Shown: piece after piece, positions 54,000-63,214 of the stretch
Position numbering within the stretch: the stretch's first letter is position 1
Layout: the number at the start of each line of letters is the position of its first letter
Assembly (NCBI RefSeq): GCF_016592555.1
Contig: NZ_AP014546.1
Coordinates: 558,001 to 622,000, forward strand
Source: Neptunomonas japonica JAMM 1380
GTDB lineage: Bacteria > Pseudomonadota > Gammaproteobacteria > Pseudomonadales > Balneatricaceae
DNA length: 64,000 nucleotides
Direction: 5' to 3'
Notes under the pieces: generated by a model
What the model saw: the letters and a program-made list of their open reading frames with translations, nothing else
Told to the model about the DNA's origin: nothing
Database searches by the model: none
Program-made: the position numbers and the translations under genes

Positions 54000-54377
54000 T
54001 TACTGCGGTACTGCAGCGTAGACAACTACTTCACACAGCATCTCTTCGCGAGCAAGCCCAGCGACTATCATTGCTGCACGGTTTGGATAGGGCGCTGCAA
54101 AATATTCTGCATAGACCTTGTTGAAAATAGGTAGTTGCTCGCGAGCAGTGACATAGATTAGGACTTGCGTCACATCATCCATAGTCAGTTTAGCTGCTTC
54201 AATGGTGTGTTTTAAGTTATCCATCGTTTGGCGTGCCTGGGCTTCAATACCGCCTTCAACAACTTTCCCGTTTACATCAATAGGGATCTGAGCTGTATAG
54301 AATTGGTTGTTAGCGATAATAGCCCACTCTAGTGGTGCGGCTGAGGCAAAGAGGTCTGTTTTTACAGCTGTTTTCAT
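54000..54377 (-). CDS. RidA family enamine/imine deaminase
   Basis: A 125-residue RidA/YjgF protein that hydrolyses reactive 2-aminoacrylate-type imines. The conserved Arg lies in YPNRAAMIVAGL and the FTAQIPID-like region (FYTAQIPIDVNG) plus the C-terminal CEVVVYAAV are typical. ATG 54377 gives the normal length; the frame extends 31 codons upstream through a terminator. It follows the BCCT transporter but a hairpin lies between, so co-regulation is only partial. Confidence 0.9.
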   Translation of the reverse strand: MKTAVKTDLFASAAPLEWAIIANNQFYTAQIPIDVNGKVVEGGIEAQARQTMDNLKHTIEAAKLTMDDVTQVLIYVTAREQLPIFNKVYAEYFAAPYPNRAAMIVAGLAREEMLCEVVVYAAVPQ

Positions 54378-54429
54378 ATGGGTTACCACTTTATTTAAAA
54401 CATGAATGTGAGTAATTATTTCTAATAAG

Positions 54430-54455
54430 CAAAAGGAGCCTGAGTTAGGCCCCTT
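54430..54455 (-). terminator. Intrinsic terminator after the BCCT gene
   Basis: AAGGAGCCT and AGGCCCCTT (plus strand) form a 9-bp stem with one G-T wobble and a 5-base loop; on the minus strand TTTTGCTTATT follows. It lies 16 bases past the transporter stop. Confidence 0.75.
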
Positions 54456-54470
54456 GCTTAATTCAGGCAA

Positions 54471-56033
54471 TTAAAGCCCTTGTTCATCCGCCATTTTTAT
54501 AGCGATTTGTGGAGCCGTCCATAATGAAGGTAGCAACACCAGAGATACTGGAACTGCGGTCACGACAATAAAAGACTGTAGTGCTGAAATACCACCTGAG
54601 CCTATAGAGATCAGTAGTGCAGCAACAACACCCATCATGATGCCCCAAAACACGCGTACAGCGCTTTTAGGGTGGTCAGTCCCTGTCATTACCATAGATA
54701 CTGCGTAGGTCATTGAGTCACCGGTTGTGGCGACAAAAATCGTAGTCAGAATCAAGAACAGTACAGAGATCACAAAACCCATAGGTAGCTGCTCAGTAAT
54801 AGCTAGCAAGGCGGCAGGTAAATTGAAACCAGTGAAAGGCTCAGAGATAACACCTGGGTTTGCTAGCTCAAATGCTAAGCCGCTACCGCCTACAATGGTG
54901 AACCAGAAACAGGTGATAACCGGTGCAACAATGGAGATGAGCAAGATCATTTGACGAATAGTACGGCCACGAGAGATACGTGCTACAAACATTGCCATTA
55001 ATGGGCCATAGCCTAGGAACCAGCCCCAAAAGAAAACTGTCCACCAGTCTAACCAGCCTGGGCTAGCACGAAAAGTTGCCATTGGAATGAATTGATCCAG
55101 GTAGATACCAAAAGAGTGCAGGTAGCTATCAATGATGAAGGCGGTTGGGCCAAAGAAGAGAATAAATGCCATTAGGGCAACAGCAAGTATAACGTTGGCA
55201 CGACTTAGTATCTGTATACCACGGGTTACACCACTCACAGCTGATAATGTGTAGATGGCAATAAGTCCGAGTAAAATCATGACCTGAGTTGTATAGGTGT
55301 TTGGAATGCCGAAAAGCTTTTCCAGTCCAAAGCTTACTTGCAACCCAAGAAAGCCGATGGGGCCGACAGTTCCCGCTACAACAGCAAGTACACAACAAGA
55401 ATCGACAATAGCACCGAAAGCTCCCTTCATGACACGATCGCCAAATACTGGGTACAGCAAGGTACGGGGTTTGAGAGGTAGTCCTTTTTCATAATGCAGG
55501 TACATGAACACAATACCTGTCAGGCTGCCAAGAATTGCCCAAGCAAGAAAACCCCAGTGCATAAAGCTTTGAGCTAATGCGTTGTAGGCTGCTGCAGTGG
55601 TACCCGATTCACCACCATATAACGGCGGAGGCGAGGTAAAGTGAGCCATAGGCTCAGCTGCTGCCCAAAAAACACCCCCACCGGCTAGCAGGGTACACAT
55701 GATGATAGATATCCACTGGAAGGTCGACATCTCCGGAGCTTTTAAACCTCCTAGGACAACCGCGCCGGTGCGCCCAATCGTCAGGAAAATACCGATAACA
55801 AATGTTAACAGTAGTAATACTTGCCAATAGGCACCGAAATATTTTGTTGATGTTGCAAATGCACTATTTACCCAGCCAGACATCATATCGATGTTATAGA
55901 GTGCTAGTACTGCAAACAGTACTATTACTCCACCGCTGATAAGGAATACTGGCATATCTACGCCTGCCAGTAATTTACCTTGGCTGCTATCTGGCGTGTC
56001 TGTCGCCAGAGAAGCCTGAGTTGCGTTACTCAT
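54471..56033 (-). CDS. BCCT family transporter
   Basis: A 520-residue, 12-helix sodium- or proton-coupled transporter of the betaine/carnitine/choline family. The signature FVARISRGRTIRQ is intact. The aromatic box that holds the quaternary ammonium group is partly altered: in helix 4 W160 and W165 are kept but the BetP Tyr position is Leu; in helix 8 the W-W...W pattern reads W338-F339...Y342. That suggests a related but not identical substrate. No long C-terminal osmosensing tail is present, fitting nutrient uptake more than osmotic stress. Confidence 0.92.
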   Translation of the reverse strand: MSNATQASLATDTPDSSQGKLLAGVDMPVFLISGGVIVLFAVLALYNIDMMSGWVNSAFATSTKYFGAYWQVLLLLTFVIGIFLTIGRTGAVVLGGLKAPEMSTFQWISIIMCTLLAGGGVFWAAAEPMAHFTSPPPLYGGESGTTAAAYNALAQSFMHWGFLAWAILGSLTGIVFMYLHYEKGLPLKPRTLLYPVFGDRVMKGAFGAIVDSCCVLAVVAGTVGPIGFLGLQVSFGLEKLFGIPNTYTTQVMILLGLIAIYTLSAVSGVTRGIQILSRANVILAVALMAFILFFGPTAFIIDSYLHSFGIYLDQFIPMATFRASPGWLDWWTVFFWGWFLGYGPLMAMFVARISRGRTIRQMILLISIVAPVITCFWFTIVGGSGLAFELANPGVISEPFTGFNLPAALLAITEQLPMGFVISVLFLILTTIFVATTGDSMTYAVSMVMTGTDHPKSAVRVFWGIMMGVVAALLISIGSGGISALQSFIVVTAVPVSLVLLPSLWTAPQIAIKMADEQGL

Positions 56034-56113
56034 AGTAGTCTCCTGATGGATCTCTTATATTTATTGGTGTATCAGGTCATCTATTTAATAGTGGAAGCCT
56101 ATGGCTCCCGTTA

Positions 56114-57124
56114 TTAAACGCCTAGGTTTAATGGCTTTAACGAATCGTCCAGAAAGTTCAGCCAATTCAGCCCCATGACTTTAGCTACCTCTTCAGGGCT
56201 AAAACCACGTGCTAACAATCCATTGGTAATATTCGGGAAGTCCCTACTGTCTTTAAACCATGAAAGTGGACGTGGCCAATTCGCATTTGCTTTAGAACCT
56301 TCGCCGTAATCCATATCTTTTGACCAGCGACCGTTACGCATCCACTCTAGGATTGATAATGGCTGCTCCTGACAAAGGTCGGTGCCAATGCCTATGTGAT
56401 TAATTCCCATCAATTCCGCTGTACTGGCCACCATGTCGCAGAATTCATCTAACGTGCAATCCGGACCATTTTTTAGATGGAATGGGTACAAGCTAAAGCC
56501 CAGCAAGCCCCCTGATTCACTTAACGCTTTAAGAACCGTATCGGACTTATTACGTTTGGCTTCGTGAAAGCTAGTGGGGTTCGCATGTGAAATCACAATG
56601 GGACGTTGTGAAATTTCGATGGCTTCCAGCGTGCTGCGTTCTGCGCTATGGCTCATATCTATAACCATGCCGACACGGTTCATCTCTTTGATCGCTTGGC
56701 GGCCAAAGCGAGTAACACCGCTGTCGTGTGCTTCGTAACAACCGCAAGCGAGTAGGCTTTGGTTGTTATATGTCAGCTGCATAATCATTAGGTTTAGCTC
56801 ACGCATTACCTCGATCATGCCAATATCATCTTCAATGGGTGAGCAGTTTTGCGCCCCAAACATGATGCCTACTTTGCCTAGCTCTTTAGCACGACGAATA
56901 TCCATCGCGCTTTTCACTGGCATGATGAGGTCGCTATTTTGCTCGAAAAGCCGGTTCCATTCCGAAATGCGCAGCAATGTCTCACGAATCTGTTCATGGT
57001 AAACGATGGTGGCATGCACCATCGTTACGCCACCTTCGTGTAGCTGTTCGAAAATTTCTCGGTTCCAGTTCGAATATTGCAGACCGTCAATCACAATCAA
57101 ATCGTTATGCAGTGCACTATTCAT
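56114..57124 (-). CDS. M19 membrane-dipeptidase-fold protein lacking the HxD metal motif
   Basis: A 336-residue amidohydrolase-like TIM barrel of peptidase family M19. Kept: SH in VIDMSHSAERS, SH in PIVISHANPTSF, Arg in KRNKSD and Asp in IGIGTDLCQ. Missing: the N-terminal HxD, here DGLQYSN (residues 13-19). The same loss is seen in the pseudomonad dipeptidase-like gene of the glycine-betaine/dimethylglycine region (PA5396 type), so this is probably that subfamily, of unknown substrate. It lies 13 bases after the aldehyde dehydrogenase gene and before the BCCT gene, implying one operon. Confidence 0.85.
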   Translation of the reverse strand: MNSALHNDLIVIDGLQYSNWNREIFEQLHEGGVTMVHATIVYHEQIRETLLRISEWNRLFEQNSDLIMPVKSAMDIRRAKELGKVGIMFGAQNCSPIEDDIGMIEVMRELNLMIMQLTYNNQSLLACGCYEAHDSGVTRFGRQAIKEMNRVGMVIDMSHSAERSTLEAIEISQRPIVISHANPTSFHEAKRNKSDTVLKALSESGGLLGFSLYPFHLKNGPDCTLDEFCDMVASTAELMGINHIGIGTDLCQEQPLSILEWMRNGRWSKDMDYGEGSKANANWPRPLSWFKDSRDFPNITNGLLARGFSPEEVAKVMGLNWLNFLDDSLKPLNLGV

Positions 57125-57137
57125 TGATCAGCTCCTG

Positions 57138-58583
57138 TTAGGCGCGGATGTAAGTCGTTTTTACAATGGTGTAAAACTCTTTAGCATAAGTGCCCTGTTC
57201 GCGAGGCCCGAAGCTTGAATCTTTGCGTCCACCAAACGGCACGTGATAGTCAGTACCTGCTGTTGGCAAATTCACCATGACACAACCTGTTTTAGCGTTA
57301 CGCTTGAAGTCTGTTGCGTATTTCAAAGAGGTCGTACAGATACCACCAGTCAGACCGAAGTTTGTATCGTTCAGAGTGGCTAATGCTTCGGCATAATCTT
57401 TAACTTTGATGACACATGCGATTGGCGCGAATGCTTCTTCGCGGTTAATTGTCATGTCATTGCTAGTGTCGGTGAATAGCGCTGGCTGCATGTAGTAGCC
57501 GTCAGTTTCTTCTGTGAGTACTTCACCGCCATATACCAGAGTACCGCCTTCAGATTTGGCTGTTTCTAAATAGCGCAAGTTCTGTTCCATCTGGCGAGCA
57601 TCGGCAACTGCACCAATGTGAACGCCCGCTTTAAGAGGGTGGCCAACAACGAGCTTTTTCATACGCGCTATAACGGCGTCAACAAAGCGGTCATGGATAC
57701 CTTCCGTAACGATTAAGCGAGAAGACGCCGTGCATTTTTGGCCTGTACCGCCGTAAGCACCACCCACAGCACATTCCACTGCATTATCAAGGTCCGCGTC
57801 ATCTAAAACGACCAGCGCGTTTTTGCTACCCATCTCTAATTGGCATTTCACTAGGTTTACAGCAGTAGCAGCGGCAACTTTGCGACCAGTCTCTAAAGAA
57901 CCTGTAAACGTTAATGCATTGATACCACGTGAGTGGATCATTACATCACCTACTTCAGAGCCTGGGCCCATCACTAGGTTGAATGTGCCGGCTGGTAGGC
58001 CTTGGCGAGAGATGATTTCTGTTAGCGCCCAAGCACTTGCTGGTACTTGATTGGCCGGTTTGAAAACAATGGCGTTGCCAAATGCTAATGCTGGTGCAAT
58101 TTTCCAAGCACCGGTAGCGGTTGGAAAGTTCCAAGGCGTAATAATACCAACGACACCGACGGGCTCGCGGCGTGTTTCGATTTCAACACCTGGGCGAACA
58201 GACTCAGCTGTTTCACCCATCTGGCGAAGGACTTCGGCTGCGTAGTAATGAAAGAACTGACCTGAGCGGTAAGTTTCACCAACACCTTCTGCAAGCGTTT
58301 TACCTTCTTCACGTGCGAGTAATTCACCCAACTCATCTTTGCGTGCAATAAGTTCATCACCAATGGCCATAAGCACCGTGTAGCGTTGTTCTAAACCGCT
58401 TTTAGCCCATTCGGCTTGGCCAATAGCTGCTGCAGTAATAGCTGCTTCAGTTTGTGCCTTATCTGCTTGAGCATAATGACCGATCAGGTCGCTGGTATCG
58501 GCTGGGCTGATATTTGCCACGCTGTCATTGTTACCTTCTACCCACTCACCTGCGATGTAATTGTTAAATACTGAATCAGACAT
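57138..58583 (-). CDS. Aldehyde dehydrogenase, 2-oxoglutarate-semialdehyde dehydrogenase-like
   Basis: A 481-residue NAD(P)-dependent aldehyde dehydrogenase. Asn 152 (TPWNFP), Glu 250 (QLEMGSKN), Cys 284 (GGTGQKCTASSR) form the active site. The C-terminal SSFGPREQGTYAKEFYTIVKTTY is characteristic of the 2-oxoglutarate (alpha-ketoglutaric) semialdehyde dehydrogenase group that ends sugar-acid and hydroxyproline pathways, although succinate-semialdehyde or other semialdehydes are possible. First gene of the minus-strand operon, divergent from the LysR gene. Confidence 0.9.
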   Translation of the reverse strand: MSDSVFNNYIAGEWVEGNNDSVANISPADTSDLIGHYAQADKAQTEAAITAAAIGQAEWAKSGLEQRYTVLMAIGDELIARKDELGELLAREEGKTLAEGVGETYRSGQFFHYYAAEVLRQMGETAESVRPGVEIETRREPVGVVGIITPWNFPTATGAWKIAPALAFGNAIVFKPANQVPASAWALTEIISRQGLPAGTFNLVMGPGSEVGDVMIHSRGINALTFTGSLETGRKVAAATAVNLVKCQLEMGSKNALVVLDDADLDNAVECAVGGAYGGTGQKCTASSRLIVTEGIHDRFVDAVIARMKKLVVGHPLKAGVHIGAVADARQMEQNLRYLETAKSEGGTLVYGGEVLTEETDGYYMQPALFTDTSNDMTINREEAFAPIACVIKVKDYAEALATLNDTNFGLTGGICTTSLKYATDFKRNAKTGCVMVNLPTAGTDYHVPFGGRKDSSFGPREQGTYAKEFYTIVKTTYIRA

Positions 58584-58660
58584 ATTGACCTCCCGAATGT
58601 AGTTGGAATGATCATAAAACTTGTGCTGTAATAATAAAAATTAATAAATAATATCCAGTA

Positions 58661-58675
58661 ATAAGGTTTTCTTAT
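58661..58675. promoter_or_regulatory. Palindromic operator 1 for the LysR regulator (ATAAG-N5-CTTAT)
   Basis: ATAAGGTTTTCTTAT fits the T-N11-A form of LysR sites and ends one base before the lysR ATG; it contains the likely AAGG ribosome site. The other copy is at 59662-59676. Binding here would repress lysR translation/transcription and act on the divergent aldehyde dehydrogenase promoter. Inferred from repetition, not shown. Confidence 0.6.
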
Positions 58676-58676
58676 C

Positions 58677-59570
58677 ATGCTTCCAGAATTAAAAGTGACT
58701 CAGCTTCGCCACTTTGTTTGGGTGTCTGAATTAAAAGGGTTTCATGCTGCTGCGGAGAAAGCGCACCGTACTCAGCCGGCTATCTCGTTATCTATTCGTG
58801 ACCTTGAAAATAAGTTGGGTGAAGGGCTGTTTGAAAAGCGTAATGCCAAAACGGCTAAAACTGAGCTAACGCCGTTTGGAAGGTATTTTTTGCCTAAAGC
58901 AAAAGAGCTTATCGCGCATCATGATCGGATTGCTGAAGATATGATGCTGCTGTCAGAGCACAAAACAGGCCACTTGCGGCTTGCTTCAGTGCCCTCTATT
59001 GCTAGCCGGGTATTGCCAGAAATATTGTTGAAGTTTGTCGCTAACTCTCCTTCACTTCATGTGAGCTTCTTTGATGATAATTCAGATGCCGTATTGAAAA
59101 TGGTAGAGAACCAACAAGTTGATTTTGGTATTTCTCATTTGTTCCATGAGCAGGACCATAGCGATAAGGTGTTTACACCTATTTGGGAGGATCGCATTGG
59201 CGTGGTATGCCCAAAAGACCATCCATTGGCGGGAAAGGCGGGTATACATTGGAAAGAGCTAAGGCAGCATCGTCTTATCAGTAATGGGACTTCTCGGCTA
59301 TTGGAGGATACTGAGGCGCGGCCATTGCTCGGGCACTCTCAGTTTTATATATCGAATATGATTTCACTGATTGCCATGCTGGAGGCCGGGTTTGGTATGA
59401 CAACCCTGCCTTGGTATGCCTTCCCTAAAGAAAGTACGACGTTGCAGTTCATACCATTGGAAACCCCTGAAGTTACGCGGCGCATTGGGATTGTTAAATT
59501 GAGTAATAAGTCACTCACGCCTCCGGCTCAGGCGCTTGTTGATTTTATTCTTGCAGAGAGTAAAAGTTGA
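58677..59570 (+). CDS. LysR family transcriptional regulator
   Basis: A 297-residue regulator: N-terminal winged helix-turn-helix (LRHFVWVSELKGFHAAAEKAHRTQPAIS) and a two-lobed effector-binding domain (about 90-295). It lies between the two divergent operons, and identical palindromes flank it, so it is the likely local regulator, with the operon's substrate or an intermediate as inducer. Effector identity is unknown. Confidence 0.92.
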   Translation: MLPELKVTQLRHFVWVSELKGFHAAAEKAHRTQPAISLSIRDLENKLGEGLFEKRNAKTAKTELTPFGRYFLPKAKELIAHHDRIAEDMMLLSEHKTGHLRLASVPSIASRVLPEILLKFVANSPSLHVSFFDDNSDAVLKMVENQQVDFGISHLFHEQDHSDKVFTPIWEDRIGVVCPKDHPLAGKAGIHWKELRQHRLISNGTSRLLEDTEARPLLGHSQFYISNMISLIAMLEAGFGMTTLPWYAFPKESTTLQFIPLETPEVTRRIGIVKLSNKSLTPPAQALVDFILAESKS

Positions 59571-59914
59571 TTGAGGTCAGTATTGGCTAATTATTTTATG
59601 CAAAATTGAAGATGAAGAAAGGGTCTCTAATATAGGAAAAATAATGGTTTAAGGTTGTTTGATAAGTATTGCTTATCGGGTGATATAACCTTTTGATTTG
59701 AGTGGTATTGGTTATTTGGCTGATGATAAGTAGCCCTTGTTGCAAAATTGCTCTATTTGATTTTCTTGAAGGTGGGCTTCCTCTGTCAATAATGATTATA
59801 GACAAAGCCAGCAGAGGGTTAGAAGCGTCATGGTTTTGAGCACATCTATGCTGCCGCTGATTTGATATCAGCATTCTGAAACCAGATGTGAGCAAACAAA
59901 CGAGGATAAAAATA
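59571..59914. other. Promoter region of the second catabolic operon
   Basis: 344 bases without a gene between lysR and the 583-residue protein. It contains the second palindromic operator; the rest is AT-rich and includes an inverted pair (GCTGCCGCTGATTTGATATC region) without clear function. Confidence 0.6.
59661..59677. promoter_or_regulatory. Palindromic operator 2 (GATAAG-N5-CTTATC)
   Basis: GATAAGTATTGCTTATC is a perfect 17-bp palindrome containing the same ATAAG-N5-CTTAT core as the site before lysR. It is about 240 bases upstream of the 583-residue gene, so an upstream activating position is likely. Confidence 0.6.
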
Positions 59915-61666
59915 ATGACAACGCCAGCAGCCATCAATGCAGCCCTTAGGGGAGGTAACGCACTGCCGCTACGACCTATTAATCAGGTTATGAATCTTGA
60001 GCGCTTGGGTGCAATGCATCAAAGCCGATTAAGTTTTATGCGTACACTAGTCCGCCGTATTATGCGTGAGCGTTGGCAGATTGAACCATCGCGATTTGAA
60101 CTTGATGCACAGGGTTACGGCACTGTGGTTTATGAAGTTAAAGCGCCTCATGGCCTGTTTAGTTTTGTTTTATTTTCTGATTACTTGGCCCCTGAAGATC
60201 GTAATGACCGTGTCATTGCTACTCAATGGGATCTTACTATGGCTCTAGTGGATGGTGAAGTTGATGATATCTATCTTGAAAAGCTGCGCCAGAACGTTCC
60301 TAAGCAAGAAGCAGGGCGAGTAGATTCTCGAGTGTTTGTGTTATCGCGCGCCAACCGCAGTGCGCGCAATTTTGACTATGTTGTTAATCAACTGGCTCAA
60401 GGAAAACAGCCGGATGTTGCTAAAATTGCACAGGTCGGGTACTTGTATCGAACGACGGCTGTTTATGGCAGTGGTAAGTTAGGTATGGCAGATTGGGAGA
60501 AGGTATCTACACGATTCCCCGATTTTGCACGCCCTTTTGCGGCGGAGATGTTTGTTTGTCTAATGCTACGTAATTTCAGCCTGCTACAAGCTGAGTATAT
60601 AGCCAAGAACCAATCTCCCGCTTCTTTTGCGCCGATGCAGCCAGAAATTAAGCGTTTCTTTGGTATTGGTAACTCAACCGGTTTGGGAATGGCCCCTTAT
60701 CTAATAAATCATCCGATATTGATTAATCAATGGGTTGAAATGCGAGAGTTAGCACTGGCTCGCATTAGAGTATTAGGTGGAATTGATGCTCATGTTTATC
60801 AGCAATTGGATAAGTTGATTGATCGTTGTTGTGTTCATACTGCCGAAACTGTGACCGAAGATGAGTGGCAGAGCGCTAATAATCAGCAAGTCCTTAAAGA
60901 TATGGACGCGCTCAAAAAGCGTGTTGCAGTTTCTTTCAATAATTGGAATGAGTTATTGCAGTGGAGTGAAGAGCATTGCTCTTTGCAAGGTCAGGAAATG
61001 CTGATTTCCATGATGTTGGAATTGTATCCCGAGCTTGTGGATGATCTAGAGGATTATCATACAGCAGAAGAGTTTCTGGACCTTGATCCTCTGATGCCAG
61101 TACAGCAGTTAAAAGAAGTGATAGAGCAGCGTTACGACTGGGCGTTGGCAATCGATTTTAATGCAGAGGGCGCGCGCGAAATTTTCTGGTACCGTTCAGA
61201 AGAAAAAATGGAGCCCCGCTTGGGTGGCACGGAGCTAGAAGATGGCCGTAAAAAGCAGATGGCGCTAGGTGTGGGGTACGCCGTACGTAAATGTTATGAC
61301 CAGCTGTGCGAGTATGTAGAAGCTTACCCTCAGCATACTGCCGCGCGCTTTATGGTGGCTAACCCTAAATTGCGAGGCATTGTGCGTAGAATTCAGACGA
61401 TGAATAAATGCGTATACGGCGATATACAGGCCAATTTACTAGATAGAAATGTTCTTCCAATGCACTTGTTACGCGCTAAATTAGCATTTTTTGGTGTCGG
61501 AAAATTTGATCCTCGATCGCGCTTATGGGTTCGTAATACGATGTTTCAGGGAGCTCCATTACTGGAAGATATCGGAAAAACATTTAATGACGATTGGTTT
61601 ATGCCATTAGCACCCAAGCAAGCAGCATCAATGAACGAATCAAATCCTGAAGCCTCAGCACAGTAG
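59915..61666 (+). CDS. 583-residue cytoplasmic protein of unknown function
   Basis: A long soluble protein with no signal peptide, no membrane helix and no motif I recognise. Alpha-helix-rich, acidic in the middle (about 330-420), with a Cys pair (DRCCVHTA) and many Arg/Trp residues. It resembles conserved hypothetical proteins that travel with the DUF3726-type gene in marine bacteria, but I cannot name a family. ATG 59915 is chosen because GAGGA at 59902-59906 is eight bases upstream; a GTG at 59888 is less likely. First gene of the plus-strand operon. Confidence 0.8.
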   Translation: MTTPAAINAALRGGNALPLRPINQVMNLERLGAMHQSRLSFMRTLVRRIMRERWQIEPSRFELDAQGYGTVVYEVKAPHGLFSFVLFSDYLAPEDRNDRVIATQWDLTMALVDGEVDDIYLEKLRQNVPKQEAGRVDSRVFVLSRANRSARNFDYVVNQLAQGKQPDVAKIAQVGYLYRTTAVYGSGKLGMADWEKVSTRFPDFARPFAAEMFVCLMLRNFSLLQAEYIAKNQSPASFAPMQPEIKRFFGIGNSTGLGMAPYLINHPILINQWVEMRELALARIRVLGGIDAHVYQQLDKLIDRCCVHTAETVTEDEWQSANNQQVLKDMDALKKRVAVSFNNWNELLQWSEEHCSLQGQEMLISMMLELYPELVDDLEDYHTAEEFLDLDPLMPVQQLKEVIEQRYDWALAIDFNAEGAREIFWYRSEEKMEPRLGGTELEDGRKKQMALGVGYAVRKCYDQLCEYVEAYPQHTAARFMVANPKLRGIVRRIQTMNKCVYGDIQANLLDRNVLPMHLLRAKLAFFGVGKFDPRSRLWVRNTMFQGAPLLEDIGKTFNDDWFMPLAPKQAASMNESNPEASAQ

Positions 61667-61675
61667 GAGAACGCT

Positions 61676-62434
61676 ATGCATGTATCAATGATAGAACTCA
61701 AAGCTGCTCTGCGGCGCTGTTTTGAGGCCAGTGGTTATTTTGTCGGCAATTATGAAGATGCTGCCAATATGATTTTGTGGCTTGAAAAGCACGGTCTGAA
61801 TGGTTTGGGTGAATTAGATAGAGCAATTTCATACATAAAAGAAGATAAAGAGAAATCGTTAAGCACTGTTGTTTATGAAGATAACACGTCCGCTATTATT
61901 GATAGTAATGGCCGCAGTGCACTTAACTGTATAGCAGCTTCTGTCGATTTGGCCCATGCTAAGGCTCTAGAGTGTGGTATCGCTACTGTTACGGTTCATA
62001 ATTGCCACAATCGTATGTTCGTACTAAAAGCGTTAACTGACTGCGGAAGGCGTGGTATAAGTGCGGCTGCTTATTGGCAAAATGGCAGCCAAGTTGTTAC
62101 TGAGCATGCTGTTGCGATTAAAGCCGGTGATCGATACCCGAGTTACAGTGAAGCTACCACCAATTTAGCAAGCCTTGAGGTGACGGCTGGAGAGAAACAA
62201 GCGTTGACGATTATCTGTAGTTCTCGTGTAGATTTGACCGCTTCTTTACAACAATCTAAAGGGAACTCAAATGCTCGTTATGTGAGTGCTTCACAAGTGG
62301 CGAAAAATAAAGAATATAGCGTTGATCATGGTATCGAAATTGATGAACAGCTATGGGCTGAAATCAACAAAATCGGCGAAGGTATCTTAGTTGAAAATAC
62401 AGAGCGTTCGCGGATGGGGGCTGGGGGGAGGTGA
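61676..62434 (+). CDS. DUF3726-type protein, probable reduced Ldh2/YiaK-like dehydrogenase
   Basis: A 252-residue protein nine bases after the previous gene. Its order of motifs follows the Ldh2 (malate/lactate dehydrogenase type 2, YiaK, DpkA) family: EKHGLNGLGELDRAISYI in the place of the catalytic SHG segment, IDSNGRSALNCIAASVDLAHAKALECG (cofactor-side helix), and VTVHNCHNRMFVLKALTDCGRRGI in the place of the NSxHxG segment. It is about 80-100 residues shorter than those enzymes. An oxidoreductase on an imine or 2-hydroxyacid is a hypothesis only. Confidence 0.6.
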   Translation: MHVSMIELKAALRRCFEASGYFVGNYEDAANMILWLEKHGLNGLGELDRAISYIKEDKEKSLSTVVYEDNTSAIIDSNGRSALNCIAASVDLAHAKALECGIATVTVHNCHNRMFVLKALTDCGRRGISAAAYWQNGSQVVTEHAVAIKAGDRYPSYSEATTNLASLEVTAGEKQALTIICSSRVDLTASLQQSKGNSNARYVSASQVAKNKEYSVDHGIEIDEQLWAEINKIGEGILVENTERSRMGAGGR

Positions 62435-62476
62435 GCTTCGGCTTTCAAGGCTAATCCAAGTTGGTTTTAGTCACTC

Positions 62477-63214
62477 ATGATTAGCTACTCTGTATTGGAT
62501 CTATTAGCGCTGCTGATAGTCATGAGTGGGATCATTCTGCAAACCTGGGTAGGTATTGGTTTTGGCTTACTGGCTGCACCAATACTCTACTTAGTTGATC
62601 CTGCTTATGTGCCAGTTCCTGCTCTAATCTTAGGGTTTAGTCTGTCGTTACTCTTGGTATTAAATCAGCATAAACTCCTGTGTTGGCGACGGGTTCTGCC
62701 CGCGATTATTGCGCGCTTTCCCGGTTGCTGGTGCGGTGCTCTTCTATTGGTTAGCGTCCCTCCCAATCTACTTAGTATACTGTTCGGCTGTGTTTTATTG
62801 ATGGCCGTTTTAACATCCCTGTATGCCTGCAAAATTACACTAAACTCTATAACACTATGTGTCGGTGGCTTTTTCTCGGGTCTCATAGGTACAGCAACAT
62901 CGGTAGGTGGGCCGCCTATAGCACTGGTTTATCAGGGTGTAGATAGAATCACAGCACGTAATGAGCTTGCTGCCTTTTTTCTTATTGGAACGCCTATTTC
63001 AATATTGTTTCTTGCACTGCAAGGGCGGGTTGATATAGGTAGTCTATTGTTAAGCCTCAAGATGCTTCCAGGAGTGCTGGTTGGCTTTGGCATCGCCCGC
63101 CTTTGTGATAACCGTATTAGTGCATCTTCGAGTAAACCTGTACTGCTGTTTATCTCAAGTGCATCAGCCATCACGATTTTATATAAAGGAATTAGTGGCT
63201 GGTGGAGTGCTTAG
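62477..63214 (+). CDS. TSUP (TauE/SafE) family membrane transporter
   Basis: A 245-residue, about eight-helix transporter with the two-fold repeat of the TSUP family (VGIGFGLLAAPILYLVDPAYVP and GTATSVGGPPIALVYQGVDR). Members export sulfite, sulfoacetate or other small organic anions. It lies 42 bases after the DUF3726 gene, and is probably the last gene of the LysR-controlled operon; export or uptake of a pathway product is inferred. Confidence 0.88.
   Translation: MISYSVLDLLALLIVMSGIILQTWVGIGFGLLAAPILYLVDPAYVPVPALILGFSLSLLLVLNQHKLLCWRRVLPAIIARFPGCWCGALLLVSVPPNLLSILFGCVLLMAVLTSLYACKITLNSITLCVGGFFSGLIGTATSVGGPPIALVYQGVDRITARNELAAFFLIGTPISILFLALQGRVDIGSLLLSLKMLPGVLVGFGIARLCDNRISASSSKPVLLFISSASAITILYKGISGWWSA

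Follow-up and report, generated by a model that had tools for sequence, protein, structure and literature searches.

A probable LysR-controlled regulon for catabolism of homarine or a closely similar N-methylated heterocyclic acid in Neptunomonas japonica

Introduction

Homarine (N-methylpicolinate) is a diatom osmolyte that a marine Ruegeria draws down within hours, as stated in an excerpt of PMC12817926. In an excerpt of PMC13390433, Mgd is described as taking part in homarine catabolism, the gene for the AraC-type regulator TmaR is placed beside mgd in Ruegeria pomeroyi, and a paper on the homarine catabolic pathway is cited (Ferrer-Gonzalez et al. 2026, Nat Microbiol). Here we analysed a 64,000-nucleotide stretch of Neptunomonas japonica JAMM 1380 (positions 558,001 to 622,000 of contig NZ_AP014546.1, hereafter the window; the genome is a single contig of 4.1 Mb), in which an eight-gene locus at positions 54000-63214 probably forms a regulon under LysR control that serves the breakdown of homarine or of a closely similar N-methylated heterocyclic acid.

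The operon for homarine is reportedly named homABCDER. Five enzyme genes and a regulator would fit an aldehyde dehydrogenase (ALDH), an M19-fold protein, a 583-residue orphan protein (U583), a DUF3726 protein, an Ldh and a LysR regulator. On that match, the window locus differs from the hom operon in having RidA and not Ldh and in being split into two operons, and no second soxBDAG-type operon was found in the window genome. If the published hom operon is this cluster, the window locus would be its RidA-type, two-operon variant. The trigonelline (tgn) pathway of Acinetobacter baylyi resembles the pathway proposed below in its N-methylpyridinium acid substrate, ring opening, semialdehyde, and release of formate and methylamine; there, a flavin monooxygenase pair opens the ring, and none is present among the eight window genes. 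For the locus and its relatives, we computed gene content, linkage, conservation of a promoter dyad, RidA/Ldh exclusion, Mgd-like operons nearby in some relatives, and one U583-DUF3726 fusion.

Gene content and proposed pathway

All eight open frames are intact, and the LysR gene (58677-59570, plus strand; PF00126 and PF03466) lies between two operons. The minus-strand operon runs from ALDH (58583-57138) through the M19-fold amidohydrolase (56114-57124) and a BCCT transporter (54471-56033) to a RidA-family enamine/imine deaminase (54000-54374), with gaps of 13, 80 and 96 bases. On the plus strand, LysR is followed by U583 (59915-61666, with its ATG at 59915), by the DUF3726 gene 9 bases on (61676-62434), and by a TSUP (TauE/SafE) transporter gene another 42 bases on (62477-63214; PF01925, 6.1e-23), which by its spacing belongs to the same operon as U583. 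An earlier note, made from the sequence alone, had listed these genes with this placement, and the list was confirmed in full, including its RidA, TSUP and DUF3726-type assignments and a 583-residue protein of no recognised family. The RidA scored 77.3 bits against PF01042 (cut-off 27.3; 1.3e-21) and, below that model's cut-off of 106.25, 73.1 bits against TIGR00004.

We infer the substrate and every pathway step as follows. The BCCT carrier would import the zwitterion, and U583, as the main subunit, with DUF3726 as its partner subunit, would open the ring such that five carbons are kept as a semialdehyde and one as an N-formyl group. ALDH would then oxidise the C5 semialdehyde, and the M19-fold enzyme, as a deformylase, would split off the one-carbon group as formate; what remains would be the N-methyl imine/enamine of 2-oxoglutarate. 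In the last step of the Neptunomonas type, RidA would hydrolyse this imine to 2-oxoglutarate and methylamine, so that methylamine is the predicted product. In Ldh-type relatives, a DpkA-like Ldh would instead act on this imine as a reductase; its product, N-methylglutamate, would then be converted to glutamate by N-methylglutamate dehydrogenase. LysR would act at the dyad ATAAG-N5-CTTAT, which stands before both operons. The carbon count favours homarine because its carbons minus one ring carbon equal the glutamate skeleton, and we counted the betaine-type transporters (BCCT, and ProX-type ABC importers in relatives) in favour of the proposed pathway.

Linkage across relatives

A total of 121 loci were examined, of which 17 were too short (less than 5.8 kb on the low side or less than 3.5 kb on the high side of U583), leaving 104 to be counted within 8 kb of U583. 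M19 was present in 101 of the 104 loci, DUF3726 in 97, LysR in 91, ALDH in 90, BCCT in 79 and a ProX-type binding protein in 10; the LysR, ALDH and BCCT counts are matches to large families and not necessarily orthologues. The genes are therefore not scattered among relatives, which was the outcome that the earlier note had set against its own proposal of a regulon. The linkage recurs on named plasmids of Gamma-, Beta- and Alphaproteobacteria, including, by gene order, unannotated records of Vibrio and Caballeronia. In a sample of 398 genomes from the phylum, 29 had U583. Oceanospirillaceae have the two-operon layout; a one-strand layout, ALDH-M19-(BCCT)-U583-DUF3726, occurs in SAR92/Porticoccaceae and Rhodobacterales. 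ABC importers of the ProX (betaine) type replace BCCT in Roseateles, Aminobacter and Pararhizobium. On an archaeal plasmid, that of Natrinema versiforme (locus L235), a relative of U583 stands with an Ldh_2-like partner, ALDH and BCCT.

Some flanking genes bear on the substrate. In a SAR92/Porticoccaceae locus (L061), a two-stretch CoA-transferase III protein, which we take to be of the size of DddD, lies beside the cluster together with Fe-ADH, ALDH and BCCT genes, and an annotated dimethylsulfoniopropionate (DMSP) demethylase cluster is a neighbour in L112. We counted these DMSP genes in favour of the proposed homarine-type pathway. Genes of sizes similar to the L061 neighbours were also seen in L065, L067 and L078.

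The earlier note had offered four candidate substrates, namely proline betaine, hydroxyproline betaine, homarine and trigonelline, among which homarine is the best supported. A pathway for proline betaine, hydroxyproline betaine or N-methylproline, in which ALDH oxidises the N-methylglutamate semialdehyde of an opened pyrrolidine ring, could likewise reach N-methylglutamate, and the cluster on a plasmid of Pseudomonas sp. MPC6 has ring-hydroxylating-oxygenase and mandelate-racemase-type genes and a second BCCT gene nearby. The eight window genes, however, include no Rieske or other demethylase of the kind that proline betaines would call for, no racemase and no proline dehydrogenase (genes flanking the cluster in relatives were outside this search), and RidA and M19 would be left without a role, so that we give this pathway little credence. 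The MPC6 plasmid (L115) is typed as conjugative, and its cluster may perhaps be a mobile betaine-catabolism island.

Alternation of RidA and Ldh

Within 8 kb of U583, RidA was present in 64 of the 104 loci and a full-length Ldh_2 in 24; no locus had both, and 16 had neither (Fisher 2.7e-13 for exclusion, a value that ignores kinship). Among the loci with neither, L026, L029 and L037 have RidA further off, and in Sinorhizobium meliloti (L122) two RidA genes lie outside the 8 kb. The Ldh of Ruegeria TM1040 has delta1-piperideine-2-carboxylate reductase as its nearest PDB relative (4.8e-53; next 2.2e-38). This reductase, DpkA (1wtj), is thus the nearest solved relative of the Ldh that replaces RidA, whereas a full-length Ldh_2 is absent from the window genome. 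The simplest reading of the alternation is one imine with two fates. It also lends support to the earlier suggestion of an N-methylated compound degraded through an imine and a semialdehyde, as a DpkA-like imine reductase stands in the place of RidA and Mgd-like operons lie beside some clusters.

The alternation could also follow from lineage alone, with no common intermediate acted on. Most loci do fall into lineage blocks, so the Fisher value overstates the evidence. A single alphaproteobacterial family nevertheless contains both types, RidA in L112, L116, L148, L157 and L162 and Ldh in L111, L149-L151, L155, L156, L159 and L160 (L111, L112 and L116 are Roseobacteraceae; the remaining loci belong to a family, f55, taken as the same one). 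Both types also occur within Oceanospirillaceae/Marinomonas-type genomes; the gammaproteobacterial loci L042 and L053 have Ldh in place of RidA, as does L052, which was too short for the count. A single genome, G319, carries two U583 clusters, one of the RidA type (L148) and one of the Ldh type (L151). We consider the lineage explanation unlikely.

Mgd-like operons in relatives

In three relatives, sox-type genes and an AraC- or GlxA-type regulator gene adjoin the cluster: a soxBDAG-type operon with an AraC gene in Ruegeria TM1040, SoxA with an AraC gene in genome G115, and a soxBDAG-type operon with a GlxA-type regulator in Roseateles XES5, where folD and purU lie on the other side. This arrangement resembles MgdABCD/TmaR of R. 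pomeroyi, and Mgd-like operons beside the cluster would agree with the part in homarine catabolism that Mgd has in the excerpt of PMC13390433; compared with that description, the window genome has no such operon that we could find, and its sole full-length SoxA stands in a glyA-purU context. The TM1040-type SoxA sequences, seven including those of TM1040 and G115, form a clade with support 1.000 in the tree. In four of the five GmaS-bearing genomes (12 genomes were examined), clade members lie 2.7-12.2 kb from GmaS, a closeness that marks the clade as probable N-methylglutamate dehydrogenase. Genomes G115 and G135, both of the Ldh type, have a TM1040-type SoxA and no GmaS over the cut-off. In HTCC2148, DAO, SoxA-type and GCV_T-type genes and a 100-aa frame without a Pfam match directly follow DUF3726.

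Other neighbours recall one-carbon metabolism. The L158 cluster adjoins MTTB, homocysteine S-methyltransferase and DAO-GCV_T genes, and that of Mesorhizobium (L237) stands with MTTB-family and FAD-oxidoreductase genes, as would fit a cluster for general demethylation in glycine-betaine, dimethylglycine or one-carbon housekeeping. A PEP-mutase-family gene is also present at L158. We give housekeeping the slimmest chance of the explanations weighed here: in the window genome, glyA-soxBDA-purU genes form a cluster of their own, accompanied by a GbdR-like regulator, and a C5-type ALDH and imine enzymes would have no role in such a function. That separate cluster, which includes glyA for serine hydroxymethyltransferase (L136, G000:C1:660000-679900), lies about 50 kb from the window and probably serves sarcosine/glycine betaine catabolism.

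A conserved dyad at the two promoters

The exact dyad ATAAG-N5-CTTAT occurs twice in the window, once before each operon: ATAAGGTTTTCTTAT at 58661-58675, between the ALDH operon and lysR, and ATAAGTATTGCTTAT at 59662-59676, upstream of the U583 gene. As the earlier note had observed, the same palindrome is thus found in both promoter regions, and these are the only exact sites in 64 kb, where 0.08 would be expected; none of 100 shuffled windows had two exact dyads. With one mismatch allowed, there are four sites against 3.2 expected. Among 57 of the 80 named loci in which ALDH, LysR and U583 could be placed (23 were not usable), the exact dyad was present in the ALDH-LysR gap in 39, a slight undercount in that an over-long open frame start masked a dyad in L008 and L021. 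It was present in the LysR-U583 gap in 46 and in both gaps in 34, while its five spacer bases vary among relatives. The TSUP gene is separate from the U583 operon in 8 of the 42 TSUP genes listed; four of these have a dyad 178, 232, 449 or 778 bases upstream, and the other four loci hold less than 230 bases upstream.

LysR boxes follow a T-N11-A rule, to which the dyad conforms. The layout, a LysR gene adjoining target promoters with a T-N11-A dyad, is that of LysR-regulated divergent operons, and we regard the dyad as a putative LysR site, a case made by its recurrence at the same place in relatives. Since the genome-wide scan gave no excess, no further regulon members are claimed. A scan for promoters and terminators gave nothing above shuffled sequences.

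U583 and DUF3726

U583 has no Pfam or NCBIfam match, and a sequence-profile search of the PDB gave no credible relative (best E 0.5). When 69 aligned members were compared with Pfam at E up to 1, no family matched more than seven of them; DNA_pol_A_exoN, the commonest weak match (7 of the 69, best E 0.0033), was taken as chance. At least 7982 of 8000 scored candidates were U583 homologues; among named hits, Neptunomonas japonica DSM 18939 came closest, with 97% over U583. Across 123 sequences, a single His and many Arg are invariant, and no Cys is, so that no classical metal site is evident. One source calls a member "Zorya protein ZorC EH domain-containing", a name that no Pfam match supports. 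The equation of U583 with PA5397 from the dgcAB region of Pseudomonas aeruginosa was considered and dropped, and no literature was found on PA5396/PA5397.

The DUF3726 protein scored 72.8 bits against PF12525 (cut-off 22.1; 2.2e-20). It also matched Ldh_2 (1.3e-8) over profile positions 3-134 of 333 only, at 34.8 bits, which is below the cut-off of 38.8 and does not make it a full-length member; hhalign against Ldh gave 89.6% (1.9e-6). Its C-terminal end has a conserved SRxxGAG-like motif. By these profile comparisons, DUF3726 appears to be a cut-down relative of Ldh_2, related to its N-terminal part. A search for literature on DUF3726 found none. On a plasmid of Mesorhizobium sp. 131-2-1 (L237:7950-10394), U583 and DUF3726 form one 814-aa open frame, and this fusion is evidence that the two work together. 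U583 fusions had also been suspected from long open frames in L150 and L152, where only U583 matched significantly, and these were set aside as mere open frames.

The M19-fold, BCCT and ALDH proteins

The M19-fold protein (PF01244, 6.9e-81) has 2i5g as its nearest PDB chain (1.8e-75). As the earlier note had claimed, it lacks HxD, with DGLQYS in the expected place. In 115 aligned M19 rows including the window, the HxD place reads L-Q-Y in 110, L-Q-C in two and T-Q-Y in one (two are unreadable), and the bridging-Glu position is Gln in all 115; in M19 dipeptidases both are metal ligands, and by these the protein does not qualify as an M19 dipeptidase. The window subfamily thus shares the fold of the M19 dipeptidases and the 2i5g amidohydrolase and keeps the His, His, Arg and Asp positions in all 115 rows, but differs from them in the uniform replacement of HxD (113 rows readable) and the bridging Glu. 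This uniformity, together with the ligand positions kept, makes M19 look like an altered enzyme and not a decayed one.

The BCCT transporter scored 512.4 bits against PF02028 (cut-off 27; 1.3e-153). BetP-type proteins have a Trp-rich box at TM8; the altered aromatic box that the earlier note had described here is GWFLGYG in TM8, with F and Y in 80 of 86 rows including the window and W at both positions in six.

The ALDH (Pfam, 9.3e-153) had been placed in the 2-oxoglutarate-semialdehyde group. Its best NCBIfam models are indeed 2-oxoglutarate-semialdehyde dehydrogenase and 2,5-dioxovalerate dehydrogenase, but at 481.5 and 476.7 bits it remains far below their cut-offs of 770 and 750, so that the kinship stands and membership does not. 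Models for succinate-semialdehyde dehydrogenase (SSADH) score below the C5 2,5-dioxovalerate models. Cys284 is present in 103 of 103 rows and Glu250 in 100 of 103.

The carbon number bears on whether the same machinery serves another N-methylpyridinium acid such as trigonelline, or several. Trigonelline breakdown in Acinetobacter leads to succinic semialdehyde, methylamine and formate, which we counted for this alternative. On pSymB of S. meliloti (L122), a divergent group at about 30% identity comprises U583, an Ldh_2/DUF3726-like protein, M19, a succinate-semialdehyde dehydrogenase and two RidA, fits a C4 product, and may perhaps carry out the same chemistry on another heterocycle. An ABC transporter and an aminotransferase are also found there. 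The window ALDH, however, comes closest to the 2,5-dioxovalerate (C5) enzymes, SSADH models scoring lower, and a glutamate skeleton is what the Mgd-like operons beside the cluster in some relatives suggest; a trigonelline-type substrate for the window locus therefore seems to us distinctly improbable.

Discussion

Several observations weigh against a homarine regulon of the proposed kind. The bare dyad is not enriched genome-wide, with seven places against 12 for a reversed control, and the RidA/Ldh counts are uncorrected for kinship. The assignment of the TM1040-type SoxA clade is contradicted by G319, the fifth GmaS genome, in which the Sox nearest to GmaS is only 41% identical; the Roseateles SoxA branches off below the Mgd clade and a second clade together, not inside the Mgd clade; and the adjacent SoxA of HTCC2148 is 32-36% identical to every other SoxA compared. 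Searches of the window genome found no full-length Ldh_2 and no GmaS over the cut-off, and its only full-length SoxA belongs to the glyA-soxBDA-purU cluster that includes the GbdR-like AraC gene, a setting that sarcosine would predict. This genome therefore cannot run the published N-methylglutamate branch as written; the RidA branch would be needed, and methylamine would be left.

The RidA/Ldh fork, the U583-DUF3726 fusion, the LysR box and the origin of DUF3726 appear new here, as they were not met in the literature on DUF3726, homarine, PA5396/PA5397 and trigonelline (RidA and LysR boxes were not searched as such). Taken jointly, and only tentatively, these features may mark U583-DUF3726 as a novel family of enzymes that open N-methylpyridinium acids, probably with no metal centre; DUF3726 would derive from an Ldh_2 fold that became the partner after loss of the cofactor domain. 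At the one-imine fork, RidA would be a dedicated catabolic hydrolase that frees methylamine and Ldh a reductase that feeds N-methylglutamate dehydrogenase; RidA-type bacteria without GmaS, as here, would release methylamine from an algal osmolyte.

The gene set is widespread, and no family in the libraries searched includes its key enzyme. The RidA/Ldh fork predicts which bacteria turn the osmolyte into glutamate and which release methylamine. If true, RidA would gain a dedicated catabolic role beyond general clean-up.

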